Shown here piece after piece: positions 2,326 to 62,879 of a DNA stretch of 64,000 bases (its first letter is position 1; the number at the start of each line of letters is the position of its first letter). A program made the position numbers and the translations under genes. The notes under the pieces were generated by a model, which saw only the letters and a list, made by a program, of their open reading frames with translations, did not search any database and had not been told where the DNA came from. Source of the DNA: Amphibalanus amphitrite (Eukaryota > Arthropoda > Thecostraca > Balanomorpha > Balanidae); contig NW_024883443.1 of NCBI RefSeq assembly GCF_019059575.1, positions 1-64,000 of the forward strand, given 5' to 3'.

Positions 2326-4531
2326 TAGGGGAGAGCGGGGCCAGTTGAACCACTTTTTATATGTTGACATGCACAGCGAGATCTAGTTGTCATATCGAAA
2401 AATGCACAATACCATGAAAAAATATGCTCTTTTGGCTTTATTTTAAGATATGTAAAATTATGTTTCAAACATATTTTGCTGCCAAACGCATGCTTATAAA
2501 ACAGCTCTACGCCCGTTTCAAATGACCCCGATGCGAGGGTCAATTGAACCAGCCCACGGGGTCAATTGCACCTATCCTTAACAATGGGATGTTTTCCTCT
2601 TTAAGGCAACTTTTTTAAGGAGATATTTTGTCCGGTTTACTTTTCCAAATGCTACATTCAATAGGTCGTTGGAAAGCTAAAAGTGCAAAGTTCCTCATAA
2701 TAGGTGACATAAAGTACATAGACTATGGTAAAATGAGCGGATGAGGAAAATGAGAAATATCTCAGGCTATAGTGTGCTTTCAAGCAAAAGGCTGGAGAAA
2801 AAGGGGTCAAAAATTGAGATCTATTCAACTACTATTTCAGTTTAAAAGCTCATTTCAAAGGTGGACTATTTCCTGTAACCCGCGCCGGGCCGGTGCTCTG
2901 AGATTCTGCGCCGGGCCGGGGGGGGGGGTGTCTGAACACCCCCCCCCCTTCCAACTCGGCTCCTGGGCCACGTAGCGACACGCGGTAAGCGGCAATCGAA
3001 AGAACGTCCAAAATAAGGACGAAAACACTTCGGTCATTTTTTGGGTCAGGTCAAAGGTCAGGTCACCAGAGGTCACCAAAGGTCAAATGTTCACTATTTC
3101 AACATTTTGGAAACTGCCAACGGCTATCTCGGGAACCGATAGAGCTACAGCGCCGCGGAAAAGCGCATTCGATAGCCCTTTTACAGACCTTTCTGAGTAA
3201 TGTTCTCAGATTTGACCTCAGGTCAACAGTTTAGCCTCCAGAGGGCAAAAGCTAAAAAATAGCCGTTTTTACGAAAAACGTTTTTTCGGCAATAACTTTT
3301 GACTCAAAAGAGTCATGACATTACTTTTGCCACCATCGTGTTCCTCTCGTCGAGACGCGTCGAATGAACTATAATTTGACCTTGAAAGGTCAACTTGAAA
3401 ATTTGACCTCAGGTCAAGGTCATGACCTGACCGGAAAAGGTCACGTTGCATATCAGTCGATCCGCAACGTCGAGCCGAACACATCTAAGGCGTTTTCAGC
3501 GCTCTAGCACGTCTCTATCAGAAGTTATTAGCGAAAAACTGTTAGATTCTGTTCGTGACCTGAGATGACCTCGGGAACATAACGAGGGGTCACAGTTGCC
3601 ATTTTCCGGTTCAGTGTGTCCATTTTATCTACATCTCGATGTTTGAGAGTGTCTAGAATAGCGTTCGTGCAAAACAGACGCTTTTCAATTTTCTCCCATT
3701 GACTTATAATGGAGAGGTCGCAAAATTGACCTGACCTTAGGTCACCGATATCAAAATTCCGATATATAAATTTTATAGATAATGTTGCTCTAATCAATCG
3801 CTGAAGGTTTCAAGGCAATCGATCAATCGGTGTAGCTATGACGAGCATTCTTATTTTTTTCTGAGGTGAGGTCACTTGGCGTGACCTGGTGACCTGACCT
3901 AAGGCGACCTGGGTCTGAAATTTTTACAACATGTGCGGAAAAGACGCCCGAACAGGTGTGTCAAAAACGGCGGCGCTCTGCGCCGCCGTTTTTGAGATAT
4001 CTGCGAAAAACCGCAGGGGGGGTGTTCAAACACCCCTCCCCGGCCCGGCGCGGGTTAATGTTTACAGCCCCTGAACAACAACCATTGCAAAGGTCACCGG
4101 GGTCCATTGAAACGGATTGTGGCCCTGTTTCAACTGACCCTCAGAGAAGCGTTTCAATTGACCCCATCCGCTCCCGCCATCTCGCACGCGCCGTAAAGCA
4201 CATGTCAAACGAGCTGGAGGGACGGCATCATGCTGAATGAAGGGCCAAATAAGGTGTTATTCCGGAGCCAGGAGTTCTTCTTTCAGCAAACAAAGGTATA
4301 TGAGATATCACAAAATATTCATAAAAACGATTTCTCCCAAACGCCCCTCAAAAACACAAAAACAAGTGTCAAATTAAAATTACCGTCCGTTTGCCGCCCA
4401 AACGCCGTTGACAAAGGAAGTGGTCGAGCGCGGATGCGCAGTGGTGTCGGCAACGCCATATGTTGCATACTGTTGAAAATAAAGCCATGTTTCATCTGAC
4501 CCCGTGTTTCAACTGGCCCCGCTCTCCCCTA
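2326..4531. mobile_element. TA-flanked terminal-inverted-repeat element hosting a TTAA element
   Basis: The left end GGGGAGAGCGGGGCCAGTTG (from 2328) is matched by its inverted copy ending at 4529, giving about 22 bp of perfect terminal inverted repeat. TA lies on both sides (2326-2327 and 4530-4531), as expected of the Tc1/mariner or a similar TA-targeting superfamily. The ends repeat the theme 'CAATTGACCCC/TCAACTGGCCCC' internally (2540-2575, 4110-4165). No transposase frame is recognisable, so the copy is non-autonomous. A complete TTAA-type element sits inside at 2875-4058 and accounts for more than half the length. Confidence 0.8.
2875..4058. mobile_element. TTAA element, CCCGCGCC-ended group (copy 1)
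   Basis: It starts GTAA-CCCGCGCCGGGCCGG and ends CCGGCCCGGCGCGGG-TTAA; the left TTAA has one substitution. Both ends carry G-run/C-run hairpins (arms TGT..ACA). Near the right end is a GC hairpin, CGGCGGCGC-TCT-GCGCCGCCG, at about 3968-3988. The body has a direct repeat of GGTCA sites with one-base spacing (AGGTCAAAGGTCA, 3048-3060) and a palindrome AGGTCATGACCT (3417-3428). It is homologous over its length to 5504-6696, 22872-24071 and 39850-41032. No coding capacity is seen. Confidence 0.88.
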
Positions 4532-5356
4532 TACGATATATAGTGTGCGTCTATGGTAATGCATATACATGCCTGCGTCTGCGTGTGAGGGTGCTTAAAC
4601 ACATGTTTGTTGAGGGTGCTTAACGAGGGTTACAACTCACGATCTGTTTTTGACTCGAGTATGAATTGGCGGCGCGAAGTCCCGCGAAAATTGGCAAAAT
4701 CACTTGGCAAAACAGCTCTAAAACATGACTTTTGCAGCCTGTGTAACAAGTTTGATGCCAGAGCACCTAAGATCTCATCACCAAGTCAAGTGGCCTTGCA
4801 TATAAAAAAAACTGAGGCCCTTTCAACCGTATAGCTTATATCCTAGAAGGTTGAGTTTGTTTTTAACTTCTCAGCACTCAGCAGTGCGTAAGGAATCGAA
4901 ATCCGGCGAGTTTTTGGAAATTGAAGAAACTTTTTATGGATATCCCTAATCTGTAGCGTCCAGGACCACTTTCTGGATCCGCCACTGGTCAAGAAACATT
5001 CAGTCAAAAGAAAAAGGCTCATACCACAAGTCAGTTTTACCGTACTGTGGGTTTTAGGAGGCAAACCTGTTGTCAATGGTACAGTAAGAGTCGATCAATA
5101 GACTCTGCAGCACTGCACAGCGATGTAAAGGTAACGGCGCAAGCAATTCGTGTAATTCAGATTTTATATATGTGATCTTACGAAGGGACAACGGAGAAGT
5201 AAGCAGGAAATACAAAAATTGGCCTAGGCATTGTTGGAGGGACCCATTTGTTCGGAGCAGTCGATCGCTTTTTACGAATCTTTTTATCTCAGCCTCTGAA
5301 ATAATGGGACGCCCTCACGACAGTGAAGCTGACTGAAACTCAACCCAGGCGCAGGT
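4532..5356. other. Unassigned spacer
   Basis: AT-rich sequence between a TA-flanked element and a TTAA element. No open frame has a recognisable domain and no repeat structure was found. Confidence 0.5.
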
Positions 5357-5503
5357 TTAACCCGCGCCCCGCTGGGCTATTCAGCCATACGCGCCCTGCT
5401 GGGGGGGGGGGCAGATTCTGCCCCCCCCCCTGTCTAACTTCCGAACCGATGGTCGTAGAAATACGGGGAAAACGGCAATCGAAAGCTCTCAACAAGGCGG
5501 ATC

Positions 5504-6696
5504 TTAACCCGCGCCCTGCTGGGGGGGGGTGTTTGAACACCCCCCCCTTGTGGTTTTTCGCAAATATCTCAAAAACGGCGGCGCGGAGCGCCGCCGTTTT
5601 TGGTACACCTTATCATACATCAATTCTACACATGTTGTGAAAATTTCAGATCAAGGTCGTTCAAGGTCAGGTCACCAGGTCACTTGAAGTGACCTCACCT
5701 CATAAAAAGTTTCAATGTCTGTCATAGCTACACCGAGTGACCGATCGCTTTGAAACTTTCAGCGATTGATAAGGGTAACAGTATCTATAAAATGTATATC
5801 TCGGAATTTTGATATCGGTGACCTAAGGTCAGGTCAATTTTGCGACCTCCCCATTATAAGTCAATGGGAGAAAATTGAAATGCGCCTCTTTTGGACGGAA
5901 GACATTATAAACACTCCCAAACACTGAATTACAAGTGGTTTAGACACACTGAACATGAAAATGGTGTCCGTGACCCCTGTTTATGCCCTGAGGTCATCTT
6001 AGGTCACGAATGGTATCTAACAGTTTTTCGCAAATAACTTTTGATAGAGGCATGCTAGAGCGATGAAAACGCCTTAGATGTGTTCAGCTCGACGATACGG
6101 ATCGACTGATATGCAACATGACCCTTTCCGGTCAGGTCATGACCTTGACCTGAGGTCAAATTTTCAAGTTGACCTTTCAAGGTCAAGTTATAGTTCATTC
6201 GATGCGTCTTGACGAGAGGAACACGATGCCGGTAAAAGTAAGCTCGCACAAGGCTTGGGTCAAAAGTTATTGCCGAAAAACTGTTTCCGAAAATATCGGC
6301 TATTTTTGCAGTTTTTGCCCCCTGCAGGCAAAACCGTTGACGTTAGGTCAAATCTGAGAGGATTACTCAGAAAGGACGTTAATAGGGCTATCGAATGCGC
6401 TTTTCCGCGGCGCTGTAGCTCTATTGGTTCCCGAGTTATGCGTTGGCTTCTTGGAAATTTTCGACATTCGACCTGGAAATCGGCGAAATTTTGCCTTCAA
6501 TGACCTCTGGTGACCTGACCTTTGACCTGACCAAAAAATTGACCGAAGTGATTTCGTCATTATTTTTGACGCTCTTTCGAACGCCGCCTTCCGCGTATCG
6601 CTACGTGGCCCAGGAGCCGAGTTACAAGGGGGGTGTTCAAACACCCCCCCCCAGCAGGGCGTGGAAATCCAGGACCCCCAGCCGGGCGCGGGTTAA
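5504..6696. mobile_element. TTAA element, CCCGCGCC-ended group (copy 2, nested)
   Basis: It starts TTAA-CCCGCGCCCTGCTGG and ends GCCGGGCGCGGG-TTAA, with an extra CCAGCAGGGCG motif just inside the right end. Terminal hairpin arms are TGTTTGAACA and TGTTCAAACA. The internal GC hairpin is at 5571-5601 (loop GGA), here near the left end, so the copy is inverted relative to 2875-4058. The palindrome AGGTCATGACCT is at 6134-6145. Internal frames match those of 22872-24071 almost residue for residue on the opposite strand, so these two copies are recent relatives. Confidence 0.9.
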
Positions 6697-7087
6697 GAGC
6701 CCAAATTTTTTTGCTTAAGTAGGTCAGACGTCAGGTCATGGTCAGGTCAAGGGTGCAAAATGCAAGTTTCTACAGTATCGGCCTTGCACCGTAGTTGCCG
6801 AAGAATGGACTGAGAATGATTGCCCAAAACGTGTTCTTAGACTACAAAGACAATATTCGTTGCACACAATGTCATTCAAAGGCCAAGGTCAAGGTCAGGT
6901 CAGGTCAGGTCAGGTCACCAAAAACAAAATATAGAAAAGGGCATGTGCGACACATGTTTTATGGGTCATTTTACTCGTGGAATTCAATAGGCACACTCTA
7001 TAAGTGATATGGACCACCTCTGGATGAATTTCAGGTCGAGGTCAGGTCAACGTCAGGTGAAGTGAGGTCAAATTTTGAAGTTGGTTG

Positions 7088-8082
7088 TTAACCCTATTCC
7101 TGGCGGGCTCCGCCGGGACAAGGAACTGGCGGGGGGGCCGATTCGGCCCCCCCCTTCAGATCTCAAAAACTACACATCGCAGCGACAAACGGTAAACGGC
7201 ATCGGATACGCACGGTCAAGATCTACAATTTTTACTAAGGTCATTTTCAGGTCAGGTCAAAGATGACGTCACAGGGGTCGAAAAAGTCAAAATGGCGGCG
7301 CTAGATATGGAGAGAGTTTTTCTCGAATAACTTTCGAATTAGTCAAGATAGGAACAAACTAAGGGCATCATCGTGATCCTCTCGTCAATCCGCATCGAAT
7401 GATATATATGTTGACCTCGAAAGGTCAAGGTCAAAGGTTGACCTCAGGTCACGTGACCTCGAGGTCATCATGTATATCATTCGATGCGTCTTGACGAGCT
7501 GAACACAATGAGACCATCCACGCGTCTGTATCTTGTTCCTGTACGGAGTTATTGGCCAAAAACCTTTGGTGACCTTTGATGACGTCACATGACCTCACAG
7601 CTGCCCAACAGCAAAACAGACCTCAAGGTAGTGAAGGTTGATCGTATATGAAGTCATGTATGGTATATGGGGCCATTCCGACCCGTTTTAGTGGTAAAAA
7701 CAGGGAGTTGATTTTTCCCCCATTGACTTATAATGGGGAGGTTGCGAAACTGACCTGACCTTAGGTCACCGATATCAAAATTCCGAGATATACAAATTGC
7801 ACATACTGGTACCCTAACTAAAGCCTGAAGAGAAGAAATTGATCGGTCAAAAACTCTAGCTCTGGCGTGATTGCAAACTTTTCTGAGGCAGGGTCATCAA
7901 ACCGCCTCTGGTGACCTGACCTGAGGTCAGATCAACTTAAAATTTTCAGACATGTTGCGTAGAAGCCTTTTAGGAAAAGTCAGAAAATTTGAGCTTCCTA
8001 GCTCAACGCGTTTGGGAGAAATAACCAAAAAACCTCAGGGGGGGGGGGGCTCCTGAGGCCCCCCCACCAGGAATAGGGTTAA
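7088..8082. mobile_element. TTAA element, CCCTATTCCTGG-ended group (nested)
   Basis: TTAA-CCCTATTCCTGG at the left is matched by CCAGGAATAGGG-TTAA at the right, a perfect 12-bp inverted repeat. Terminal hairpin arms are GGCCGATTCGGCC and GGCTCCTGAGGCC. The body shares the block CCATTGACTTATAATGG (about 7720) with differently ended elements, and shares 'ATGGCGGCGCTAGATATGG' with the fragment at 45432-45840. It is inserted in 5357-8721. Confidence 0.87.
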
Positions 8083-8742
8083 GGCCTAAAAAGGTGTCTA
8101 TCCGATGCAGTTTTTCACGGCGAATCGAATGGTGCTAATTTTGTTTCCGTACGAGGTCTAGAACTTCAAAAAAAAAATCATTTTTTTTAATTTTGTGTGT
8201 CGTGACGTCATAAAATTTTGAATAACTCCCACATTTTTGAACCGATTCTTCTAAAAATTGGTATGTAGGTGCACATAGACCACTTCTTTGACATATATTC
8301 CGGTTTTTTCGATAAACTCAAAATTTTGGATTTTATAAATATTTTCCCAAAAAAGTCAGTTTTTTGAAAAATTTTAGCCAAAATCCAAAATTTTCAAAAA
8401 ACCGAGATAGCCATTTGATAGACAAAGTAGAATCACGTATAACCTTTTTTTACGTCTTGATTCCTTTAAAAATGAAGATGTTAGCGGCGTTTGAAATTTT
8501 GCCGTTTTTGAGGCGAAAATGGCGAACATGACGTCGCTAAAACGTCAATTTCTCAAAAATTTTCCGACGGATTTCGCTCAAATTTTCAGGGAACGTGTCA
8601 AATTGATGTATGATAAGGTACTGAAAGTTTGACGTCGCTGGCGTAACGCGTTTGGAAGTTATTGTTGAAAAACGGGAGGGGGGCAGATTCTGCCCCCCCC
8701 CCCCAGCGGGGCGCGGGTTAACCACCGATCCACATCTACCCA

Positions 8743-8830: not shown

Positions 8831-9239
8831 TTAACCCTCGCCCGTATGGGGGGGGGGGGTCGAACGGACGAAACGAACCCTTCGGTTTTTTGGCAAATAC
8901 TCGCGTAAACAGCGGCAGATCGCGACGAAACTTTCAGTACCCTCGCGTTAATCAATTTTACACCTACCCTGAAAATTTCATTACCCTTGTCCAAATGACC
9001 TTTGACCTGTGACCTACTTTTCGAGACCATGTTTGGCCGGAATCGCGATTCGGCGCATGTCGACTCGCATTAGCCAAGCGTTTGCAGTCTTTTCGTGGTT
9101 TTAAGCATTCAACATGGGATATGATGTGGCTCCCATGCATTAGGGTGGATGTCAAGGTCACAGGAAGGTCAAGTCAGGTCATTGACCTTTGATGACCTCG
9201 GTTCACTTTTTCGAGTTTTACATGGTTCTAGACTAGATG
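8831..9239. mobile_element. Truncated TTAA element (group of 52279-53171)
   Basis: It begins TTAA-CCCTCGCCCGTATGG with a G-run and parallels the reverse complement of 52279-53171 through 'GACCATGTTTGGCCGGAATCG' (9025) and 'TTTTACATGGTTCTAGACTAG'. At about 9239 the homology flips orientation into the next segment, so the copy is broken there rather than ending with its own inverted repeat. Confidence 0.7.
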
Positions 9240-9481
9240 CATTTAGGCTAGGTCGGGTCGAGTCATGTCAGGTCAAGTGAAGTCAATCAGTAGGGGTCCT
9301 GCCAGGTATTCATAGTAGGTGTCAACCGCCTCTGACAGCTTCGTAACATATTATGAAGGCACCAAAACTACTTCGTAAATGTTCATACTTCATATGGTGG
9401 CAAATTCCAATTCAGCTCCAAAAACTAGCCTAGAAACATGTAAAACTAAAAAAAAAATGAACCGAGGTCATCAAAGGTCAA
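9240..9481. mobile_element. TTAA-element segment in inverted orientation, left of Gag-protease insert
   Basis: This stretch matches about 52595-52830 in the direct orientation (for example 'CAACCGCCTCTGACAGCTTC' and 'AAAACTAGCCTAGAAACATG'). Homology stops inside 'AGGTCAATG' at about 9481, where Gag-protease sequence begins. It resumes at about 10984 with 'CTGACCTGACCTTCAGGTGA'. Together with 8831-9239 it forms a fold-back arrangement. Confidence 0.7.
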
Positions 9482-10703
9482 TGTGGCCCAGCATGCTGCT
9501 AGTCGATCGAGACAACAGGTTGTACGACATTTCTGTGTCTACAACGTAGAAATCTTCTTGAACGACTGTGCTCTTATATGACATCTGACCCTTGAACAGT
9601 CCAAGAACTTTCAATGGACCACCCACACTTGTTACTTTTGGTTTACATGGGTTCAGTGCAGGCTTGTTTGCCATCTGATCGAATTGCCTTTTTGTAATCA
9701 CATTGATATCAGCACCAGTATCAACTTTAAACGTCATCTGGGTTCCCTCTACTGTAACATCAATCATCCATCTCCGACATCTGCCACCCTGCACATCACC
9801 CAAGAACAGTTCGTCCTCTGCTGTGACCTCGTGCACAGTACGTTGGCGGCTCATGCATACCGACTGGAAGTGATCCATACCACCACAAGAGAAGCAGTTT
9901 GCCCCTAGGGCAGGACACTCACTTGGAGTTCGGTGGCGTCCTCGGCCGCAGTACCTGCATGTTCCGTGCTCCGGCGACTGCCGAAACGCCTGCCGCTGCG
10001 AGCGCCACGGCTGCGGGGGGCGAGGCTGGTAGTGCTGGCGCTGCTGATTCGACCGATACATCGGCCGGTACTGCCGACCCTGCGGCCGATACTGCGGACG
10101 CTGCTCCTGCTGCTGAGACTGCTGAGGATCACAGCGCTGCTGCTGGGCAGCGTCTGCCTGGGCACTGTCGACATCAACCTCAATATTCACATCAACGAGG
10201 TCACTACTTCGTAACATATCGATTACTTTCTCAAGCGTCATGTCAGTCTCCAGTGCCTGGATTTGAATTTTTCTAGCTAACTCTTTGCTTGACATCCCGG
10301 CTATTAGCCTGTCCCTGATCCGTTCTGCTTTGGTGTCACCAAAACCACATTTTTCAGCCAGCAATAGGACCGCGCGAATAAATGCTTCATTTGTTTCTCC
10401 ACGCTTCTGAGCTCGTAACTCGAATGCCTGTCTTTCTGCAATGATATTTGTCTTTGGCATGAAATACCGGTTAAATGCCTCCGTGACGGGCTCAATCAGT
10501 TTCTTATCCTCTTCTCGCATAGCAAAGCTATTCAGCAGCTGCTCGGCAGCGGGTCCCATCGAATAAATGAGTGCACTGACCTGTACCTCCTGGGGGTCCT
10601 TGTAGAGCTTCGATGCCATCTTGAATCTCGTCCATCTGTCTCGCCACTGAGGCCACTCGGATGGAGTTGAAAAATCAAACGAGTCTGGTGCCTTGAATGC
10701 CAT
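9474..10703 (-). CDS. Gag-protease fragment of a Ty3/gypsy-like retroelement, embedded in TTAA-element DNA
   Basis: An uninterrupted minus-strand frame. I prefer the ATG at 10703 (product starts MAFKAPDSF) over the upstream in-frame ATG at 10823, because retroelement Gag proteins of this type commonly begin there; the product is about 410 residues. Order of domains: a Gag core (EWPQWRDRW near the start), a Gln/Arg-rich linker, two zinc knuckles (CRYCGRGRHRTPSEC and CFSCGGMDHFQSVC), then a retropepsin with the active-site motif VDTGADINVI. The frame stops just after the protease (LLSRSTSSML). The last residues and stop are supplied by TTAA-element sequence. Reverse transcriptase, RNase H, integrase and LTRs are absent. 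No internal stop or frameshift is seen, which is unusual for a fragment. It could be a recent capture or insertion, or a domesticated Gag. Confidence 0.8.
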
Positions 10704-11017
10704 TTGACCTCTTCTGAAGTTACCGCACAATATCTTCAACCGTCTGTCTTTACAAACCCTGCCGGCTGCGCCATGTGCCCTCTGCGTCCCGGCTCCACAT
10801 CCACACGCGCGTGTGGATTTCAATGGCCTTACCTGACCTTACTTACCTTACCTTACTTGCGGTTCGCGTTCTGTATTTTCCACACTCGATCCGGCCGCCC
10901 GCCACCGTGACCCCGCTGACCTCTGACGTCACAGACGGTCAGCCGGTCAGCCCGTGCCCCGAGTGGGCACAGCCCAGCACAACCTGACCTGACCTTCAGG
11001 TGATCTTCACACCCACC
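10704..11017. other. Leader of the Gag-protease segment and resumed TTAA-element sequence
   Basis: GC-rich sequence upstream of the Gag start (minus strand). No LTR or primer-binding site could be recognised. From about 10984 the sequence again matches a TTAA element (52838-52862). It runs into the TTAA at 11018 where another element starts. Confidence 0.5.
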
Positions 11018-11940
11018 TTAACCCGCGCCCCATTGCACAGTGGGCCGATATGCCATTCTAGCGCGCAGGGCCTGAATCTTCGAACGGAACCCTTGGTTTT
11101 TCGCGAGTAATTCGCGTAAAAAGCGGCCGATCGCAAAGAAACTTTCAGTACCCTCGCGAAAACTACTTTTACAGCTAACCTGAAAATTTCATGACTCTGA
11201 CCTTAATGATCTTGATCTGTGACCTTCTTTCGAGACCATGTTTGGCCGGAATCGCGATTCAGCGTATGTCGGCTCGCATTAGCCGCGGGTTTGCAGTCTT
11301 TTCTTGGTTTAAAGCGTTCAAACATGGGATATTATGTTGCTCCCATGCATTAGGGTGGGTGTCAAGGTCACCAGAAGGTCAGGTAAGGTCATTGACCTTT
11401 GATGACCTTGGTTCACTTTTTCGAGTTTTACATGTTTCTAGGCTAGTTTTTGGAGCTGAATTCGAATCTAGCAACCATTTGAACATTTACTATGTAGCTT
11501 TGGTGCCTTCGTAACATGTTACAAAGCTGTTAGAGGCGGTTGCCACCTACTGCAAATACCCGGCAAAACCCTTACTGGTTGACCTGACCTGACCTGACCC
11601 GACCTGGCCTAAATGTATGAAGACATCATCTATGATCGTAAATAACATTATATTCGTGATCAGCACCCAAAAAAAAAAAAACCTATAGCAGCCACCCTTT
11701 ACGACGTTCTACCAGGTCCCGATTTTCCCGAATTTTGGGTCATTGACCTGACCTGGAAGGTCAACCGATGACCTAGGACCTTACAATTGGGTATCATCAG
11801 CTTCCTCTTGGCACGGGCAACACGCTCGTCTTTTCCGCGAAGCTCTAGCTCGATCAGGGGCGAAACGGCGGGGGGTGGGGTCCAACGGACCCCTTCTATA
11901 CGTTCGCGGCTGGAAAAACACCACTAGGGGCGAGGGTTAA
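11018..11940. mobile_element. TTAA element, same group as 52279-53171 (complete copy)
   Basis: Bounded by TTAA (11018-11021 and 11937-11940), ends CCCGCGCCCC and GGGGCGAGGG. It is collinear with the reverse complement of 52279-53171 throughout ('GACCATGTTTGGCCGGAATCG' at 11237). The right terminal hairpin (GGGGTCCAACGGACCCC) is intact; the left one has decayed. Left and right flanks belong to different element groups, so it sits on an older rearrangement junction. Confidence 0.85.
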
Positions 11941-12789: not shown

Positions 12790-13740
12790 CTAGCCCTAGA
12801 ACGCCTAGGGGGGGGGGGTTGTATCAACCCCCCCCCCCTGAGGTTTTTTCGAAGTGCACGCTAAACGGCTTGTCGTAGCGGGCTGAAAGTTTCAATACCC
12901 TCTGGGGCAACCTTTGCGCATCTTTTGCCGAAAAAAATTGATCGGGTCATGTCAGGTCACGGAGTTATGACGTCATAAGAGGTACAGCCTCCGGCCGGAT
13001 TTTCACAAACTGAGTGCCAACGCCCGAAGTTTCCTGCCAGTGGTACGGACATCGGTTGATGGATCGTGATGAAACTTCCCATGCATGTTGGGGCAAGTAT
13101 TGGCTATCATATGGTATAAGAAATTTGACCGGGTCAGGTCAGGTCACGGAGCTATGACGTCACAAGAGGAACAGCGTCCGGTACTATTTTTGAAAAGCGC
13201 CCGAACCACTATTTTGCTAATTCTTGTCACCTCAATGGGAATATGCAGCAATATTAGCTTCTATAGGGAGCAAATGGACCTCCCAAATCCAAAAATACAA
13301 TCAGATTTCAAAAATTTAATTTTTGATTTTTCGAATTTCTGCCGCCGACTGTGACCTTGCCGACTTCCGGCGCTCCCAACGCGCCATTTTTAGAGCTAGG
13401 GAAACGAAATACATACCAAACGATAGAGAATTGATCAAGGAACACGATAGTGAAGATTTCAAGTCGATATCTTCCACCGTTTTGCCGCAATCGCCGCCGA
13501 AAGTTGAAAAAAGTCTATTTTTCCGAAAATTTGACCTTTGACCGGTCAAAAGTAGGTCAAATGTTGACCTAGGACCAAAAAATATACCACCAATCGCGAG
13601 ATCTCGTTGAGAGCAATCCGTTGGTTTTTTCCGCTAAGCTCTACGACCTTCCGTTTCGAAACGCCAGGGGGGGGGGTCGTAACAACCCCCCCCCCTGGTC
13701 GTTCGTGTTATGAGAAATGGCCTGGTCGTGCGAGGGCTAG
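12790..13740. mobile_element. CTAG-flanked element, CCCTAGAACGCC-ended group (copy I)
   Basis: CTAG stands at both ends (12790-12793, 13737-13740) where relatives have TTAA, so the duplicated target is CTAG. The left end CCCTAGAACGCCTAGG matches 35806 and 37684. The right end is GGCCTGGTCGTGCGAGGG. Hairpin arms are GGTTGTATCAACC and GGTCGTAACAACC. Two palindromic TGACGTCA-type sites (12968, 13155) sit next to GGTCA pairs. The 89-residue frame at 13085-13354 is conserved among copies only because the DNA is; it has no recognisable domain. Confidence 0.85.
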
Positions 13741-14933
13741 ACCTGGCGATCGGCCCAGTGTGCAGTGGCGGTCTCAGCCAACTTCGCCCTAGTGAGGGGG
13801 GGCATATGTTACCACCCACCTCTAACTCAAAAACTAAGAGGGCTAGAAAGACGCGGTAAAAAGCAGTCGATAGCTCTTAATGCGTACGTTTGAAAGTATT
13901 TTGGTCATTTTTCACCTTAGAGCAATATTGGGGTCACCAGAGGTCATCAAAGGTCAAAATTTGCCAATTGTCATTATATTTTTCAGAAAACATGCCGGTA
14001 TCTCAGGAACTATGGTAGCTAGAAAAAACGCATGGAACAGCAAACGATAGCTTGTGAACTCTTCTTTTGAAAAGGTCATTATCAATATTGACCTCAGGTC
14101 GACGGTTTAGCCTCCAGAGGGCAAAAATTCAAAAAATAGCTGTTTTTACGAAAAGTGTTTTTCGACAATAACTTTCGACTACAAAAAGCCACGACATTTC
14201 TATTGCCAGAATCGTGTTCCTCTCGCCGAGACGCGTCGAATGAACTATAATTTGACCTTGAAAGGTCAACTTGAAAATTTGACCTCAGGTCAAGGTCATG
14301 ACCTGACCGGAAAAGGTCATGTTGCATATCACTCGATGCGTCTCAACAAGACAAACACAATGAGACCATCCCCAGCGTTCTATCTCGTTCCAATCGCGAG
14401 TTATTGGCAAAAAAGTGTTTGTAGCCTCAAGTGACCTCGGATGACCTGTCTAGAGGCTATCAGCAAAAATGACACCTTCTTCATCACGAGTGGACTAAAT
14501 CATTGTGAGTCTGAAATATTTGGACTTTTCCGATGCGTACACACGGATCTAGAGGCATTTTCATTTTTCTCTATTGACGTAATGGTAAGGTCACGCCACT
14601 GACCTGACCTTAGGTCACGGATATAAAAAATCCGAGATATACAAATTGTAGGCGCCCATAACAGCATGCAATCCAACAGGTCTAAAACCTTTCTGACAAA
14701 CACTGCAGGCTGGACATGATTGCAAACTTTTTTTTAGGTTTGGTCAGTTAGCTTGACCTGGTGACCTGACCTGACATGACCTGGGGTCAAAAATTTTACA
14801 TATTGTCCAAAATTGATGTACCAAAAGCTACCCCAAGCGGCGCGGCGCTACGCGCCGCGGTTTTTTATTCACACGCAAAAAACGCGACAGGGTGGTAACA
14901 TATGCCCCCCCCCCCCACTGGGGCGAAGGTTAA
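13741..14933. mobile_element. TTAA element, TTCGCCCCAGTGGG-ended group (copy A)
   Basis: The right end is CCACTGGGGCGAAGG-TTAA (14930-14933). The left boundary abuts the CTAG of the previous element and is degenerate. It is homologous, inverted, to 60771-61953. Inside are AGGTCATGACCT (14293-14304) and a GC hairpin with different stem bases from the other groups (CGCGGCGC-TAC-GCGCCGCG, 14841-14859). The G-run/C-run hairpin here is replaced by CATATGTTACCACC with C-runs. Confidence 0.8.
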
Positions 14934-48055: not shown

Positions 48056-49696
<1,641 letters not shown>

Positions 49697-51179: not shown

Positions 51180-52278
51180 CTACTCGCTTATCAACGCCTC
51201 GTTCGCCCGCTCCCATTTATCCTCAAAGTGTTTCCGATCACCCTTACACACCGCAATCATTCTTTCCAGCTCTCGGTCAGCACAAAGCCACCTGATCACT
51301 TCATCCAGGTTCAACCTCTCCCTATTTCCAATAACCATTTTACCTACTATAACTACATGATTAAAGAGGGTCGTCTTACCCAGGCCCAGTAGCACAGTCT
51401 TCGCATTAAATTCAGAACCTTCTTGCATAATTCGATTTGTAAGCATCCAATTTTTAATAGATTCCCAGAAAATCTGAACAACGGGGCAAAACCAAAATTT
51501 GTGTTCAATGCTATCTTCTACTTCGTAACACCTCTTACAATTTATAGATTCAACCACTCCAATCCGATGTAGCAATCGTTGAGTAGCACATGTTCTTGTA
51601 ATTATTTTATATTGCGCACTGCGATAACGCATAAAAATCGAGGCTAATTTGTTATTGGTATAAACTTCACTCCATGCGACCTCCCTAAGCATCGCACTCC
51701 ACTTACATTCCCATTTATGTGCATGGCTTTTAATCTGTTTCTGCATCAACTTCCAATAAATGTGTTTTGATCCTTGTGATTTGGAAACTATAAAAGACAA
51801 GCATGGGTCTATAAGAGGTCCAATTAGCTTAGTTTTGTTGGCTGCCTTCCAGGTTCTCGGTAAACTATTCACCAGACAATCATAGTCAAATTGCACACCT
51901 TCTATTCCATATTGAATTTTCATCTCCTCAAATGACATAATATTACCGTCTGCGTTCAGTAAATCGTTCAAATAATGTATCCCCTTAGAATACCACTCGT
52001 TGATTCTGCTAGTGCAAAATTTGCTTAAGTCAGAATACCAAAGCGTGCTTGCGGCCATTTCATCTAATGAGTAATCCCCATATGCATCTTTTAAGTCTGC
52101 TACTGCTTCCATAACCTCGCACCAGAAACGACTATATGACACTCGTCTACTGAAATTTCGCAAAGACACTGCATTTCTATCCCAGATGCAATTCTTCTGA
52201 CCTATTTTACTTTCAAAAAGTTGTATCCACTGGCTATCAGACTGCAACATTCGCCTAACCCACGCAATTTTCAACGAC
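51180..52278 (-). CDS. Non-LTR retrotransposon ORF2, segment 4 (C-terminal, zinc-knuckle)
   Basis: The last part of ORF2, open from the TTAA insertion to a stop at 51180-51182. Near its end is the cysteine-histidine motif CKRCYEVEDSIEHKFWFC (CX2CX8HX4C) found C-terminal to the reverse transcriptase in L1-type elements, where it contributes to RNA binding or target-primed synthesis. It connects in frame to segment 3 across the element at 52279-53171. About 470 bp of 3' UTR follow. Confidence 0.9.
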
Positions 52279-53171
52279 TTAACCCTCGCATGTGTGCGGC
52301 GTTTTCCAGCTTCTAATGTGTAGGGGGGGGGGTCGGTTGGACCCCCCCCCCCTTGCCGTTTGGCCCCTGATCGAGCTAGAGCTTCGCGGAAAAAACGAGC
52401 GTGTTGCCCGTGACGAGAGGAAGCCGATGATACCCAATTTTAAGGTCCTAGGTCATTGGTTGACCTTCCAGGTCAGGTCAATGACCCAAGGTCGGGAAAA
52501 TCGGGACCTGTTAGAAAGTCGTAAAGTGTGGCTGCTAAGGGGTTTTTCGGGGTGCTGATCACGAATATCGTGTTAGTTTTGATCACAGATGATGTCTTTA
52601 AGCATTTAGACCAGGTCGGGTCAGGTCAGGTCAGGTCAACCAGTAGGCGTCGTGACGGGTATTAGTATTACGTGTCAACCGCCTCTGACAGCTTCGTAAC
52701 ATGTTACGAAGTCACCAAAACTACTTCGTAAATGTTCAAATGGTTGCTAAATTCGAATTCAGCTCCAAAAACTAGCTTAGAAACATGTAAAACTCGAAAA
52801 AGTGAACCGAGGTCACCAAAGGTCAATGACCTGACCTGACCTTCAGGTGACCTTGACACCCACCCTAATGCATGGGAGCAACATCAAATCACATGTTTGA
52901 ACGTTTGAAACCACGAAAAGCTTGCAAACGCGCGGCTAATGCCAGTCGACATACGCGGAATCGCGATTCCGGCCAAACATGGTCTCGGAAAAGAGGTCAC
53001 AGGTCAAAGGTCATTGGGGTCAGGGTCATGAAATTTTCAGGGTAGGTGTAAAATTGATCAATGCGAGGGTACTGAAAGTTTCGTCGCGATCGGCCGCTTT
53101 TTACGCGAGTTATTCGCGAAAAACCATGGGGGGGGGGTCCATCCGACCCCCCCTACACATGCGAGGGTTAA
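52279..53171. mobile_element. TTAA element inside retrotransposon ORF2 (group of 11018-11940)
   Basis: TTAA-CCCTCGCATGTGTGCGGCG at the left; CACATGCGAGGG-TTAA at the right. Hairpin arms are GGTCGGTTGGACC and GGTCCATCCGACC. 893 bp. It separates ORF2 segments 3 and 4 without loss of coding sequence. Confidence 0.95.
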
Positions 53172-54448
53172 GGTACAGGTTGACGTCTATCATTCCAGCT
53201 CCTCCATATTCTATCGGTTGTACAAGACTCTTCCTACTTATCTTATCTCGCTTCCCGTTCCATACAAAATTGAATAGAATCGTATTTAACTCTTTCAAAA
53301 AATCAGGCGATGGATTCGGTAGTGCCGCGAATAAATGTGTCAGTTTAGGTATTATTAGACTTTTTATTACACATATTTTCCCGTATATGGTTAGGTATCT
53401 TTTCTGCCAGTCTTTAATAGTCGCATGAATTTCTCCCTTTTTCCTTTCAAAGTTATTATTGGTCATTTTCTGGATATCATTTTCGTAAATGATTCCAAGA
53501 ACCTTTTTCTGTTTTGTCCATTTAATCGGAAGTTCTTCACAGATCTTTGCTTTATTCTGTACATCATAACCTACCCACATAGCCTCGGTTTTAGTTATAT
53601 TCGGCCGCAATCCAGAGAACTTCGCGAACACTCCTAGGTCATGAAAAAGGCATCTGCAGCTGTTGACAGAGCCATCTAAGAAAAAGAGGGTATCATCCGC
53701 ATAACATGATACTTTGTTCTCTACGTCACCTATTGCAATTCCACGAATATTCTTGTTTTGCCTCACAAGTGAAGCTAAACACTCAATGGCCAACAAGAAA
53801 ATATAAGGACTTACAGGGTCCCCCTGTCTACAGGATCTAAGCAGTTTAACTTTGTTAGACAAATGTCCATTGTATAGAATTCTTGCATATGTCCTCTCAT
53901 TCATCAAATGAAACCATCTAATGGATTCTGCAGGGAAGTTATACTTATCCAGAGCGGCGCTAATAAATTTCCAGCTTAGTGTGTTGAACGCCCCTTCAAT
54001 ATCCAGACTCAAAAAGATCCCGGAACGTCCTTCATGTTCCAAATACGTCATGATATCACTCATCAACCGCGTATTGTCTCCGATAAATCGACCTTTAATG
54101 AACCCAGTCTGTGCTGGATCTACTAACTTCCCTACCACTTGTTTGTATCTATTTGCTATACAAGCGGATAAAATTTTATAACTTGTGTTCAAGAGCGTAA
54201 TAGGTCGATATGAATTGATCAGGTTCCTGGGTTTCCCACCCTTCGGTATCAAAGTTATGATACCTTCTCTTAATGACGGTGGCATGACTCGTGACGTGAA
54301 GCAAGACGACAACATCCTCATCACAATAAATTTTAGATCTATCCAAAAGAATTTATAAAACTCTGCTGGAAACCCGTCACTACCTGGCGACTTATTGTTT
54401 TTCATTGCATAAAGGGCGTGTCCAGCCTCCTTCAATGTCAACGCTACT
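53168..54448 (-). CDS. Non-LTR retrotransposon ORF2, segment 3 (reverse transcriptase)
   Basis: Reverse transcriptase domain for target-primed reverse transcription. Motifs in order: NNKSPGSDGFPAEFYK, RPITLLNTSYKIL, QTGFIKGRFIGDN, LSLDIEGAFNTLSW (first catalytic Asp), RQGDPVSPYIFLLAIE, YADDTLFFLDGS (catalytic Asp pair), FSGLRPNITKTE, KKVLGI. All expected motifs are present and there are no stops. It is bounded by TTAA elements at 53168-53171 and 54449-54452; reading frame is continuous with segments 2 and 4 across both. Confidence 0.95.
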
Positions 54449-55492
54449 TTAACCCTCGCCGGCCGAGGGGGGGGGGCGGGTGCCGCCCCCCCCCCCATAG
54501 GGTTTTTTTCGCGATAGCTCCGAACACGCTGGCGATAGAGAGCTCAAACTTGGCATACCTGACCTTTGATCCAAGCCGCATCTTTTGACACCAACCGCAT
54601 TTTTGGGTCAGGTCAGGTCACTGACCTATGACGTCATAAGTGAACCTCTGCACGGTCTTCAGATGTCGCAACTTCGCAACGCCCTCACTGCCAGAGGAGA
54701 TGTCACAGGGAAATGAAACTTGCAGGATCTAGTATCCATTATGAGTCTCACATTTTGTATATCTCGGATTTTTCCTAAAGGTCATATGAGGTCAGGTCAT
54801 TTTCGTGACCTCACCATTATAAGTCAATGGGGAAAAATTCAAACTGCTATTCTGGCGCCGGGAACGATCTCCAACTATCTCAAGCACACAGAATCGTGAT
54901 TTGATGCACTCCTTGCAAGGTTAGATGCGTCACTTTTGCAATGTTGACCTTGCGTGACGTCATTTATGACGTCATCAAGGTCATATTAGTTTTTCGTCAA
55001 TAACTCCCGATCAAATTAAGCTAGCGAGTCGAGAAAGCCACCAATGGACTCAGGAAGACCTGCCGAATCGAATGATATGCGATATGACCTCTTTCGACCA
55101 ACTTCGTGACCTGGGGGTGCTGACCTGACCTTGACCTGAGGTCAACACCCTAAGTTGACCTGACCCGAACAAAAAGTATATTATTCGACGCGCCTGAGCG
55201 AGGCGAACACGATGCTGCCAAAATCGCGGCTCTGCGGCCGTTTTTTGCGAAGTTATTCACCAAAAACTCAACCGTACCCTGTGGCACTTGACCTGACCTC
55301 AGAGGTCACCGGTTGACCTAGGACCTTAAAATCGGGTACCAATCTCTGCGTCTCGTAACGGCGCACACGCTCGTTTTTTCCGCGACGCGCTAGCTCCACC
55401 AGGGGCGAAACGGCGAGGGGGGGGTCGTACCCGCCCCCCCCCCCCCTCGGCCGGCGCGTATGTAGAAAACCAATAGGTCCGGCGAGGGTTAA
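54449..55492. mobile_element. TTAA element inside retrotransposon ORF2 (group of 19833-20867)
   Basis: TTAA-CCCTCGCCGGCCGAGGG; right end GGTCCGGCGAGGG-TTAA. 1044 bp. Very close to 19833-20867 (same ends, same hairpins, few substitutions), which points to recent activity of this group. Confidence 0.95.
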
Positions 55493-56188
55493 TATGGTCT
55501 ATATCGACCTTAGTAAGTTTTTGAAGTTCTACACAGTTCAAAAATTCAAGCGGATCGTCTTCCGTGTCGTGTGACCGAAACATCTCGCTGAAATGACGCT
55601 CTACCACGCTAAGAATTTCATTTTGATTTTGAACTGTCTCGCCATCATCTGTCTGCAAACACGGTATTAATTTGCTAACGTAATTGCGTTTTTCCAGACC
55701 CAAGAAATACTTGGTCGATCTCTCCCCTTCTTCAAACCATTGCACCCTAGATCGGGTTATGTTCCCACTCATCAAAATTTGTCTATGCTCTTCTAGTTTT
55801 CCCTGAGCATCCGCCAGTTCACTAGCCGTTTCACGGTTAGGATTACTATTCATTGTTTGCTCAAGTTGAGATACTGCAAGTTTTAATACCCTTCCCTCTC
55901 TTCTGTAATGTTTTGCCTTTTTAATTCCATCAGTTATACTTTCTGTTCTGAGATTTAAAATTAGCACCTCAAACAAAAGCGAATCACTTATAGTGAATTG
56001 CACGTCACTGAAATATTCAGTACCTATAACTGACTGCAGAAATTCATGCGAGTATACGGGTAAGGCATAGTCTATGATTGTATTTACTATAGTTCGCTTT
56101 ATTAAAGTGGAGTATTCTTGATCCCGCAATAAAGAACAATTAAACTTAAATAAACCTCTTCCTCTATCTTGGTTCGCGAAGTTCAGCG
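55489..56188 (-). CDS. Non-LTR retrotransposon ORF2, segment 2 (endonuclease-RT linker)
   Basis: A 700-bp open segment. It carries the conserved linker region preceding the reverse transcriptase, including SRVQWFEEGERSTKYFLGLE, a signature of L1-type ORF2 proteins, and a charged, probably helical stretch before it. It has no stops. Flanking TTAA elements at both sides leave the frame intact. Confidence 0.93.
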
Positions 56189-57102
56189 TTAACCCTCGCC
56201 CGCACATGCCATTTTCCCATCCTAGAACGCACATGGGGGGGGGGGGGTGGTTGCCACCCCCCCCGCGCCATTTCGTTCCTGTTGGAGATAGAGCTTAGCG
56301 GTAAAGACCAAAAAGATTCTTTGGGAAGAGACGAATCCAATGATACCCAGTTTTACCTTCTCAGGTCAGTCATTGACCTTCCAGGTCAGGTCAAACTAAA
56401 AAATGTTGCTGTTTTGGGTCACCGTTGGATATCAAGTGCGCTGCTTATCAAATACCGATGACGATGCTGTTTTCTGGTGCCAAGCCAGCTAGAACCTCTT
56501 TGTCACACTACCCGACCATAATTTTGCTGCTGAGGTCATTTCAGGTCAAGTTAGGTCAAGGTCAATTATATGTGTTTGTATGTCTGTGTGTGTCTGTGTG
56601 TATGCTGATGTGTGCACCGATTGTTTTTGGGTCCATATTACATGAAATCATGATCTGAGAAGCTTTTACCAAAAATGCAGTCAAAAAACTTCACAAAAAG
56701 TAAATTCAGCTTGCCTAAAACGCAATTATCTTAGATGACCTAGGTTGACCTTGACCCTGACCTTGACCCCTGTACATCGTCGAACAACATGTTCCATGAT
56801 AGGTGGGAGGTAAGACTGGCAAAAAAGGCCGAAATCAGGGTGTCAAAAGCTCACAAGGCCCATGGCAAACGCAAGATGTTGAGAATTGGCCATTTGGGTC
56901 ATGACATGACCTGAAAAACAAGGTCATATCTCCGAAACCAAAAATCACAGAAACTTGAAATTTTCAGTGGACATCAAGAAAGGATAGAGGAGCAGCTATA
57001 CGAAAAATCAGCCTTCTAGCTCTAAAAATGTTGAGTGCAGAGCAGAAAGACTACCTGAGGGGGGTGGCAACCACCCCCCCCCCATGTGCGGGCGAGGGTT
57101 AA
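56189..57102. mobile_element. TTAA element inside retrotransposon ORF2 (CACATG-ended group, copy 2)
   Basis: TTAA-CCCTCGCCCGCACATG with its exact inverse at 57083-57102. Hairpin arms GGTGGTTGCCACC and GGTGGCAACCACC. 914 bp; nearly identical to 61968-62879. Confidence 0.95.
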
Positions 57103-57855
57103 ACAAACCATAGAATGGTCGGTTCTATAACCTGGAACAATAGTAGCCTCAACTGTCACCGCACACAGTTCCTCTGATATAACAAAGAAATCAAGTCTGG
57201 CCTGTTTGATCTCGGGATTGATAACACGCCATGTATATTGCCTTTCGTCAGGATTACGCCTCCTGTATATATCTACCAGGTTTCTCTTTTTAAGAATTTC
57301 CAAAACTTTGCCTCTCGCTCTAGGGTGATTACTGCGCCTATACCCGTACGTATCTAGTCCCTGATCCATAACTAAATTCCAATCACCAGCAATAATAATT
57401 GGGAGATCGTTATAGTCTTCAAGTATTCTATCTCTGTTGCTGAAAAACATTGGATTGTCCGTATTTGGCGCATAAATGTTCACCAAGATAAGCTGGTACA
57501 CTTTATCAATAGTAATTTTTGCTATTATAAAGTTTCCATCTCTATCGTATGTCACATTACTGTACTCAACTTCAACTCCGTGAGTCAATATCGCGACCCC
57601 TCTAGCATTATGTGTGTATGGCGCTAATAAAATGTCTTTACCCCAACTATTTCTGAATTCGTTCTGTTTATCAGCTTTGCAGTGTATATCCTGAAGAAGA
57701 AGAATATTATATCCATCTTTCCTTAATTTATTGAACACATCTCTACGTTTTCTGAAATCTGCTAAGCCCCTGCAATTTAGCGAGCAAAAATTCAAATTAC
57801 TACTTCCCATAATTACTGTCTGAGGTCCAAGCTGTGCCACTGACCCTGGGCGCAT
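57099..57855 (-). CDS. Non-LTR retrotransposon ORF2, segment 1 (apurinic-type endonuclease)
   Basis: N-terminal endonuclease that nicks target DNA. Motifs: SLNCRGLADFRKR, LLLQDIH (catalytic acidic position as in Tx1-type elements), NIYAPN, IIAGDWN, ARLDFFVISEEL, RTDHSMVCL. The start at 57855 gives 15 residues before MGSSNLNF; the internal ATG at 57810 is an alternative. It lies 365 bp downstream of the ORF1 stop. Counting through the four segments, ORF2 would have about 1278 codons, normal for the family. Confidence 0.93.
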
Positions 57856-58220
57856 CGCCCCTGATCTCTCTTACATATAGCGTTACTATCCTTAATTCTA
57901 CCGCCTTCTAATAGGCAACAACAACACAATGAAATGAACTGTTCGATACACACATTTAATACAACGTTGCCGCCTAAGTCAAAACAGCAACACAAAGTAC
58001 TGAACAGTACGAGATGCTTACTTAACATCGCGTTGCCACGTACGACTAAACTAAATGCTGACTTCTTAAAGTACACTTCAAGGTAAAACAGCGCTGCCGT
58101 CGCATCAGTGCCGCACCCCGCCGCGATATACCGACAATGATGCTGGCTATCAGGTGACCTTATCCAGTTATCCATATCAATTATCATCGTGTTGATCGTC
58201 CTTCACTGTTCTGACCTGCC
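57856..58220 (-). other. ORF1-ORF2 intergenic spacer of the retrotransposon
   Basis: 365 bp between the ORF1 stop and the ORF2 start. The open frame crossing it has Cys-rich composition and no domain; not called. Confidence 0.7.
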
Positions 58221-60770: not shown

Positions 60771-61953
60771 TTATCCTTCGCCCCAGTGGGGGGGGGGGCA
60801 TATGTTACCACCCTGTCGCGTTTTTTGCGTGTGAATAAAAAACCGCGGCGCGTAGCGCCGCGCCGCTTGGGGTAGCTTTTGGGACATCAATTTTGGATAA
60901 TGTGTGAAATTTTTGACCCCAGGTCATGTCAGGTCAGGTCACCAGGTCAAGTTAACTGACCAGGCCTAAAAAAAGTTTGCAATCATGTCCAGCCTGCAGT
61001 GTTTGTCAGAAAGGTTTCAAACTTGGTGGATTGCATGCTGTTATGGGCGCCTACAATTTGTATATCTCGGATTTTTCATATCCGTGACCTAAGGTCAGGT
61101 CAGTGGCGTGACCTTTCCATTACAAGTCAATGGAGAAAAACGAAAATGCCTCTAGATCCGTGTGTACGCATCGGAACAGTCCAAATATTTCAGAACCACA
61201 ATGATTTAGACCACTCGTGATGACCAAGGTGTCATTTTTGCTGATAGCCTCTAGACAGGTCATCCGAGGTCACTTGAGGCTACAAACAGTTTTTTGCCAA
61301 TAACTCGCGATTAAAAAGAGATAGAACGCTGGGGATGGTCTCATTGTGTTTGTCTTGTTGAGACGCATCGACTGATATGCAACATGACCTTTTCCGGTAA
61401 GGTCATGACCTTGACCTGAGGTCAAATTTTCAAGTTGACCTTTCAAGGTCAAATTATAGTTCATTCGACGCGTCTCGGCGAGGGGAACACGATTCTTGCA
61501 ATAAAAATGTCGTGGCTTTTTGTAGTCGAAAGTTATTGTCGAAAACCACTTTTCGTAAAAACGGCTATTTTTGGAGTTTTTGCCCTCTGGAGGCTAAACC
61601 GTTGACCTGAGGTCAATATTGATAATGACTTTTTCAAAAGAAGAGTTCAAAAGCTATTGATTGCTCTTCCATACGTTTTTCTAGCTACCATAGTTCATGA
61701 GATAGCGGCATGTTTTCTGAAAAATATAATGACAATTAGCAAATTTTGACCTTTGATGACCTCTGGTGACCCCAATATTGCTCTAAGGTGAAAAATGACC
61801 GAAATACTTTCAAACGGACGCATTGAGGGCTATCGACTGCTTTTTACCGCGTCTTTCTAGCCCTCTTAGTTTTTGAGTTAGAGGTGGGTGGTAACATATG
61901 CCCCCCCTCACTAGGGCGAAGTTGGCCGAGACCGCCACTGGGGCGCGGGTTAA
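60771..61953. mobile_element. TTAA element, TTCGCCCCAGTGGG-ended group (copy B)
   Basis: TTAT-CCTTCGCCCCAGTGGG at the left; CCACTGGGGCGCGGG-TTAA at the right, with an extra CACTAGGGCGAAG motif just inside. Inverted homologue of 13741-14933. AGGTCATGACCT is at 61400-61411; GC hairpin CGCGGCGC-GTA-GCGCCGCG at 60843-60861. Confidence 0.87.
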
Positions 61954-61967
61954 AAGTCTGAATAATG

Positions 61968-62879
61968 TTAACCCTCGCCCGCACATGCCATTTTCCCATC
62001 CTAGAACGCACATGGGGGGGGGGGTTGCCACCCCCCCCCCCCGCGCCATTTCGTTCCTGTTGGAGATAGAGCTTAGCGGTAAAGACCAAAAAGATTCTTT
62101 AGGAAGAGACGAATCCAATGATACCCAGTTTTACCTTCTCAGGTCAGTCATTGACCTTCCAGGTCAGGTCAAACTAAAAAATGTTGCTGTTTTGGGTCAC
62201 CGTTGGATATCAAGTGTGCTGCTTATCAAATACCGATGACGATGCTGTTTTCTGGTGCCAAGCCAGCTAGAACCTCTTTGTCACACTACCCGACCAGAAT
62301 TTTGCTGCTGAGGTTATTTCAGGTCAAGTTAGGTCAAGGTCAATTATATGTGTTTGTATGTCTGTGTGTGACTGTGTGTATACTGATGTGTGCACCGATT
62401 GTTTTTGGGTCCATATTACATGAAATCATGATCTGAGAAGCTTTTACCAAAAATGCAGTCAAAACACTTCAAAAAAGTAAATTCAGCTTGCCTAAAACGC
62501 AATTATCTTAGATGACCTAGGTTGACCTTGGCCCTGACCTTGACCCCTGTACATCGTCGAACAACATGTTCCATGATAGGTGGGAGGTAAGACTGGCAAA
62601 AAAGGCCGAAATCAGGGTGTCAAAAGCTCATAAGGCCCATGGCAAACGCAATATGTTGAGAATTGGCCATTTGGGTCATGACATGACCTGACAAACAAGG
62701 TCATATCTCCGAAACCAAAAATCACAGAAACTTGAAATTTTCAGTGGACATCAAGAAAGGATAGAGGAGCAGCTATACGAAAAATCAGCCTTCTAGCTCT
62801 AAAAATGTTGAGTGCAGAGCAGAAAGACTACCTGGGGTGGCAACCACCCCCCCCCCCCCCATGTGCGGGCGAGGGTTAA
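61968..62879. mobile_element. TTAA element, CCCTCGCCCGCACATG-ended group (copy 3)
   Basis: TTAA and 16-bp inverted repeat as in 56189-57102, 912 bp, with very few differences, including variation in G/C-run length. Confidence 0.94.

Follow-up and report, generated by a model that had tools for sequence, protein, structure and literature searches.

Probable piggyBac elements of Amphibalanus amphitrite carry palindromes of changing sequence at asymmetric ends

What keeps a palindrome in place at the ends of transposable elements when its sequence differs from one family to the next? The question is raised by a 64,000-nt stretch of the Amphibalanus amphitrite genome (NW_024883443.1, positions 1-64,000, forward strand; hereafter the window), in which a plain scan finds G5+...C5+ motifs adjoining TTAA-type termini throughout 2875-62879. 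An initial annotation of this DNA had noted a G-run, a short arm and a C-run just inside both ends of most TTAA elements, with arms that vary between groups yet pair with themselves. Based on our analysis of the window and of a wider sample, the elements very probably belong to the piggyBac superfamily, are mostly non-coding and have asymmetric ends of the Trichoplusia ni type, with palindromes likely to be read by dimers of the transposase's cysteine-rich domain (CRD).

Results

Arm pairing at the element ends

In the window 45 ends were assigned, from 21 two-ended elements and 4 solitary ends (the second end of E24 was read separately). Both runs, which the initial annotation had claimed for most elements, are present in 40 of them, with 27 distinct cores between runs of 4-16 G and 4-13 C; the other five ends, lacking a qualifying pair of runs, count against that claim. 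Pairing was scored at the three outer positions of cores of at least 6 bases and compared with 20,000 trials in which the cores exchanged their right halves. The window cores pair at 60 of 75 such positions (25 distinct cores), compared with a swap mean of 28.9 and a maximum of 48, so that the arms do vary between groups while remaining self-complementary. The feature is also common to different groups, as had been proposed: with one core per family, 35 of 39 positions pair (swap mean 16.3, maximum 30) in 13 of the 14 families, E25 being left out for want of a C-run. Exceptions include the short-end core of E04, CCTCAGGAG, which pairs poorly, and both ends of E20 (2/4 pairs).

Loss of pairing elsewhere in the genome had been named as an outcome that would speak against conserved arms. 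On contig C1, 81 short-end places among the matches listed by a genome search contain 28 distinct cores, and the 27 cores of at least 6 bases pair at 60/81 positions (28.3 for swaps, maximum 51). Covariation therefore holds in a sample beyond the window. All three outer pairs are formed at 57 of the 81 listed places, and the core is 9 or 10 bases long at 74. The two ends of an element, short (S) and long (L), lie about 0.8 kb or more apart and yet their cores agree: across 14 families, S and L cores of the same family match at 74/84 outer positions, compared with 33.7 for swaps.

A short end and a long end

The wider sample consisted of the window and 34 loci (243 kb in total) picked for transposase matches or as extensions of these. 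In it, the G-run starts at bp 13-16 or bp 40-45 from the TTAA in 55 of 57 tracts, and each of the 19 measurable elements, of 21 with two ends, has one S end and one L end. The distance by which the palindrome is displaced from S to L is 27 in 11 elements, 26 in three, 28 in three, 29 in one and 30 in one (mode 27); E18, with an insertion interrupting its S end, and E24, with a decayed L end, were left out, and the L ends of E03, E08 and E14 are ambiguous in this measurement, as G4-5 also follows the outer tip copy. Most ends share the tip motif CCC[T/G]CGCC. In 14 family representatives, bp 4-14 of the L end are repeated 27 bp further in with a mean identity of 0.656, whereas the next best shift reaches 0.383 and none of 2,000 shuffles exceeds 0.442. 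Among 31 distinct L ends of the wider sample, the best shift is 25-28 in all and 27 in 25, with ties broken towards 27. For the 14 representatives the S and L labels were set by eye; the 57-tract count and the final offsets are independent of the labels. The S end is thus a tip followed by a palindrome, and the L end a tip, an insert, a second tip and a palindrome. Duplication of the tip motif on the long (3') end displaces the palindrome 27 bp inward, roughly an insert of about 16 bp plus the 11-bp repeat.

In several families a further recurring stretch lies just inside the S palindrome (GGTTTTTCGC..TATCTC..AAACG, for example at window 5548-5610), and L ends have a different one of the CGTAGCGACACGCGG type. 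These may be extra recognition sequence or a mark of shared ancestry.

Abundance

TTAACCC occurs 39 times in the window where 9.4 are expected, about fourfold, and in the 243 kb a G5+...C5+ motif lies within 90 bp of TTAACC[CT] at 57 of 128 sites, compared with 0.03 expected per 90 bp from its overall density. A strict short-end pattern (core of 5-14 allowed) has at least 17,174 forward matches in the same genome (808 Mb, 2,644 contigs), a lower bound as are all counts from this search, and its reversed control has none; the reverse-strand figure, with several lengths listed per place, was not used. As the pattern catches 10 window elements (both strands) out of about 25, extrapolation with equal strands assumed suggests tens of thousands of copies in the genome. 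With four strict forward matches, where the genome averages 1.36 per 64 kb, the window is a rich patch, and 19 outer elements (E03 and E04 are nested) cover 25,469 bp of it, or 40%, nested DNA included. In outside collections the end pattern had no viral matches at first, then 21 in prokaryote contigs and one in a viral contig (L022), which are not used here.

Elements and target sites

The elements, and two features that bear on them, are as follows (palindrome is abbreviated to pal.; LINE, long interspersed nuclear element).

E01, 2875..4058, reverse: family TGTTTGAACA; L left, pal. 2918-2948; S right, pal. about 4016-4041; left site GTAA, right TTAA
E02, 5357..8721, reverse: core CAGATTCTG; L pal. 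5401-5430; S pal. 8678-8704; E03 and E04 nested within
E03, 5504..6696, forward: core TGTTTGAACA; S pal. 5521-5547; L pal. 6628-6652
E04, 7088..8082, reverse: L pal. 7131-7154 (CCGATTCGG); S pal. 8038-8065 (CCTCAGGAG)
E05, 8831..11940, forward: relative of E20; S end decayed; insertion carries a gag-protease frame
E06, 12790..13740, forward: internally deleted L073 relative; S pal. 12808-12838; L pal. 13667-13695; CTAG both sides
E24, 13737..14933, reverse: family CATATGTTACCA; L left, decayed; S right
E07, 19833..20867, forward: core CGGGTGCCG; S pal. 19851-19876; L pal. 20796-20821, imperfect CGGGTACGA
E08, 22872..24071, reverse: core TGTTTGAACA; L pal. 22916-22944; S pal. 24025-24054; right site ATAA
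E09, 35806..37687, forward: internally deleted L073 relative; S pal. 35824-35854; L pal. 37616-37642
E10, 37684..38637, forward: E09 family; S pal. 37702-37728; L pal. 38568-38592
E11, 39493..39554, forward: solitary S end, tract 39510-39554; partner end not found
E12, 39850..41032, reverse: L core CGTTTTCACG 39894-39919; S core CGTTTTTACG 40987-41015
E13, 41412..42303, reverse: L pal. 41457-41489; S pal. 42267-42285
E14, 42300..43223, forward: core CGTTAAACG; S pal. 42316-42335; L pal. 43152-43179
E15, 43599..43661, reverse: solitary decayed L end; pal. 43599-43619
E16, 43671..44687, reverse: core TCGATGCGA; L pal. 43716-43742; S pal. 44644-44669; CTAA both sides
E17, 45432..45504, forward: solitary L end; pal. 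45476-45504 (CGGACACCG)
E18, 48056..49696, forward: family TGGTTGCCA; S pal. displaced to 48792-48813 by the insertion; L right
E19, 49745..49817, forward: solitary L end; pal. 49789-49817 (CAATTTG); partner not identified
E20, 52279..53171, reverse: within LINE ORF2; L core TCGGTTGGA 52323-52352; S core TCGGATGGA 53128-53153
E21, 54449..55492, forward: within LINE ORF2; S pal. 54467-54496; L pal. 55417-55446
E22, 56189..57102, reverse: within LINE ORF2; core TGGTTGCCA; L pal. 56235-56264; S pal. 57059-57083
E25, 60771..61953, forward: family CATATGTTACCA; S left (TTAT); L right
E23, 61968..62879, reverse: core TGGTTGCCA; L pal. 62014-62042; S pal. about 62834-62860
LINE ORF2, 51180..57870, reverse: matches to endonuclease and reverse transcriptase; split by E20, E21 and E22
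TTAA element with CCCATTTAYGCCC tips, 27667..30164, forward: palindrome at bp 16-33 of the left end only; no G/C runs

When the flanks of E20, E21 and E22 are joined at a single TTAA, frames of 282, 322, 477 and 419 codons become one LINE frame of 1,283 codons with no stop. The restored frame fixes the boundaries of the three elements, each of which has a TTAA target present in single copy in the empty site, and suggests that ORF2 was intact when they inserted. TTAA is found on both sides of 15 of the 21 elements; four have one altered side, and the matching CTAG of E06 and CTAA of E16 may reflect insertion into non-TTAA sites rather than decay. One report (PMC10813416), whose main text does not use the word "palindrome", lists CCC tips and, among the occasional sites other than TTAA, CTAA. 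The termini begin with CCC or CCY, with few exceptions, either TCC (E10 S) or decayed (E24 L).

A single TTAA is common to the neighbours E09 and E10 (37684-37687) and E13 and E14 (42300-42303), and also occurs in this form at 615-618 of locus L073, as if one element had landed at the boundary of its neighbour. The insertion that splits the S end of E18 (48076-48790) holds a long (TG)n tract.

Linked transposases

A DDE_Tnp_1_7 transposase lies within G/C-palindrome ends in the same orientation in seven copies from four lineages. The linked transposase has the catalytic DDD residues and a predicted core fold, and T. ni piggyBac is its best match both by sequence and by fold. E06, E09 and E10 are non-coding copies with both ends of the transposase-bearing L073 and as such qualify as piggyBac miniature inverted-repeat transposable elements (MITEs), or deletion derivatives. 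E09 retains about 391 bp from the start of L073 and 315 bp from its end, separated by some 1.2 kb of other DNA. L073 and L068, whose sister transposases are 62% identical, share TTG..CAA as the core of the short end and TTG..CGA as that of the long end. Cores like CCA..TGG are found in both L076 and L082.

Tips of the CCCATTA type, with no G/C runs, are found at 14 of the 28 transposase loci examined first; three loci belong to the L073 family and others have further CCC tips. In the stretch initially examined, six (L026, L066, L068, L075, L076, L080) had no ends of their own, and a wider look located those of L068 and L076. Two candidate partners were rejected: the 604-codon transposase of L064 belongs to a CCCATTAGTGCC element of its own, which lies within a G/C-palindrome element, and the L081 frame lies outside a nearby CATATG-family element. 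One transposase frame is present in three copies (G000:C33, C431 and C257) whose proteins are 100% identical (rounded), which points to recent movement.

Discussion

A known end design with unusual arms

The initial annotation knew of no named family defined by this hairpin. That view is not supported, given the probable piggyBac identity of the elements and a palindrome described at this position in T. ni piggyBac. In the T. ni element (IFP2), ends of 35 and 63 bp (LE35/RE63) are sufficient, each with an internal repeat of 19 bp that resembles a palindrome; the structures show bp 17-33 of one short end bound as duplex, and bent, by a dimer of the C-terminal CRD (Chen et al. 2020, PMC7351741). 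In cells, the native enzyme both excises and integrates with asymmetric ends only, and a 5-bp insertion in the right end costs about half of the activity (PMC7351741). The A. amphitrite elements share with T. ni piggyBac the TTAA, the CCC tip, a short 5' and a long 3' end, a tip segment duplicated on the long end and, at both ends, an internal palindromic repeat in almost the same place. They differ in having a G-run, a 9-10-bp core and a C-run where T. ni has TGCGT...ACGCA, in an offset of 27 rather than 28, in run lengths that differ among copies and in many half-site variants within one genome. The match appears to extend to every respect testable on sequence except the homopolymer arms and one base of offset. 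What is known is the palindromic piggyBac end; what is distinctive is the many variants flanked by long G and C runs, and no description of such palindromes at TTAA element ends was found in a search of the open-licence literature outside Repbase and Dfam, and the string TTAACCCGCGC turned up there in three papers unrelated by title.

In piggyBat of Myotis lucifugus, the CRD binds a palindrome unrelated in sequence, and palindromes are on the left end only (PMC11707139; see also the preprint PMC13405395). Unlike piggyBat, the G/C elements carry a palindrome on each of their ends, and their transposase is nearer to piggyBac. Outside this clade, the 5' ends of eight transposase-bearing families were tested at bp 12-40 with 500 shuffles, a range that palindromes displaced further in would escape (L061, L062, L065 and L069, for example, were left out). 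A clear palindrome at about bp 15-34 is found in L023, L067, L078 and L079 (0/500 shuffles). Resembling piggyBat, L023, L067 and L077 have transposases that match piggyBat above piggyBac, and their 5' ends hold the palindrome at bp 15-34 (weak in L077). At the six 3' ends tested no palindrome stands out at bp 12-40 (best 28/500, L067), and the L029 family has one at bp 53-70 of its 5' end in a scan of bp 1-75. The window element at 27667-30164 (left end 6/500, right end 468/500) resembles this group in its one-end palindrome and its lack of G/C runs. One genome seems to carry both main piggyBac end designs, in which a piggyBac-like transposase goes with palindromes on both ends and a piggyBat-like transposase with a palindrome on the 5' end.

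Two further comparisons are with non-coding and inner-repeat elements. The Acropora CMITE families, which are piggyBac-related MITEs, are likewise TTAA-flanked and non-coding, with different terminal inverted repeats, conserved interiors and tandem copies, but they are about 100 bp long and neither G/C palindromes nor ends of two kinds are described in the portion of the report available (PMC2872659). Among the piggyBac-like elements of humans and invertebrates, those with inverted repeats in a subterminal (STIR) or inner position also have near-end palindromic repeats as a trait; unlike the present elements, they have no G/C homopolymer arms in the available account (PMC12324416).

Duplex half-sites and the alternatives

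By analogy with the solved piggyBac complexes, the transposase core would contact the tip motif at each end while CRD dimers bind the palindromes; two transposase dimers would build an asymmetric complex across one S and one L end, and seamless excision followed by TTAA integration would ensue. Selection through CRD dimer binding would keep the palindromes. The arms would covary because identical CRDs read both half-sites, and a shift of specificity in a lineage would require both arms at both ends to change together. Transposase recognition was among the roles considered in the initial annotation and agrees with this reading. The comparison of copies suggests that the G and C runs are prone to slippage and drift in length after insertion: in a second transposase-bearing lineage the runs differ (S G8/C9 and G11/C12; L G10/C8, G11/C10 and G9/C8) around a core that changes neither in sequence nor in start.

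Alternatively, the shape itself could be what matters, with an extruded cruciform or single-stranded hairpin read by the transposase or a host factor, or protecting the ends. Of five pieces tested as single strands, four give strong folds (z -2.5 to -3.6; the fifth covers only part of its site), and a 2025 preprint discusses possible hairpin or cruciform binding by PGBD5 at similar repeats (PMC12324416). Such folding is expected of any long palindrome and so does not discriminate. Within one site the lengths of the G-run and C-run are uncorrelated (r 0.12, p 0.45, n=40), so the two sides of the stem are not kept equal; the imperfect L core of family e (L073 type) is identical in the four copies that bear a transposase; and the tip-plus-palindrome layout is known as duplex-bound in piggyBac (PMC7351741). 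A two-fold symmetric dimer on duplex DNA predicts covariation, a near-constant core length, a fixed start and a core common to both ends, whereas a cruciform or end-protection role alone does not predict the last three, making it improbable. Of the proposal that structure rather than sequence is conserved, the covariation stands but the need for a hairpin does not, since a dimer on duplex predicts the same covariation.

Mutation without selection for binding could also match the arms. Long palindromes are known substrates for templated mutation, and quasi-palindrome correction, that is, templated repair in a hairpin, would yield compensatory changes. It leaves unexplained the agreement of S and L cores across 0.8 kb or more, the persistence of imperfect L cores and the palindromes at about bp 15-34 in the other piggyBac group (six cases, L077 weak), and we consider it marginally less probable even than a role for shape. 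TTAA target sites are not exclusive to piggyBac, and the elements could in principle form a separate superfamily, either Sola3 or one without a name, that has a transposase of its own, in which case the piggyBac genes would be bystanders; most window families are still without a linked transposase. No Sola-type gene linked to these ends was seen, though no Sola profile was searched. The seven copies that enclose a transposase in the same orientation, and the non-coding family e copies that retain both ends of the transposase-bearing element, make this by far the least likely of the three; in family e the linkage itself argues against it.

Several observations weigh against recognition of duplex half-sites by CRD dimers in piggyBac elements. 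The L-end cores of two families are imperfect (TTGTTACGA, CGGGTACGA), and the CATATGTTACCA core of the E24/E25 family is not self-complementary. The variable runs make the distance from tip to palindrome centre differ by several bp, to be compared with the cost of the 5-bp insertion in T. ni. A transposase-bearing partner was not found for most window families in a search that scored only the best candidates. CRD-like Cys/His positions align to those of 6x67 and recur in L068, L074, L076 and L082, but the CRD lies outside the structural alignment and its part of the model has a low to middling confidence (pLDDT about 55-73). Outside the clade, the palindrome of L077 is weak (19/500 shuffles), and no significant palindrome is seen within bp 12-40 at the 5' ends of L024, L029 and L064.

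Half-sites as a possible recognition code

A hint that half-sites follow transposase kinship comes from two lineages against two (L073/L068 and L076/L082). We tentatively propose, as a possibility somewhat short of even, a recognition code in which dozens of piggyBac lineages keep a fixed scaffold of tip, G-run, 9-10-bp core and C-run and only the symmetric half-sites are swapped in step with the CRDs. If true, the code lets related transposons coexist in one nucleus without cross-mobilising. Independently of the code, what seemed a structural oddity becomes a testable statement on end recognition. The 28 core variants in the 81 listed short ends, together with several open-frame transposase copies in the same genome, may be variation enough to read which CRD residues select which half-site, so that the set is a good natural collection for learning how a transposase recognizes its ends. 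It also adds candidate transposases for gene delivery.

Other features of the window

Scans for Rfam families and for tRNAs had no matches in the window. Inside E05, a gag-like frame (9471-10838) has an aspartyl protease match (PF13650) just below the cut-off, and a Tc1/mariner-type transposase frame at 15925-16839 has a PF01498 match below the cut-off. Short TTAGG/TAGGT arrays lie at 50632-50708 and 60098-60183, each near a related 48-bp tandem array, in opposite orientation.

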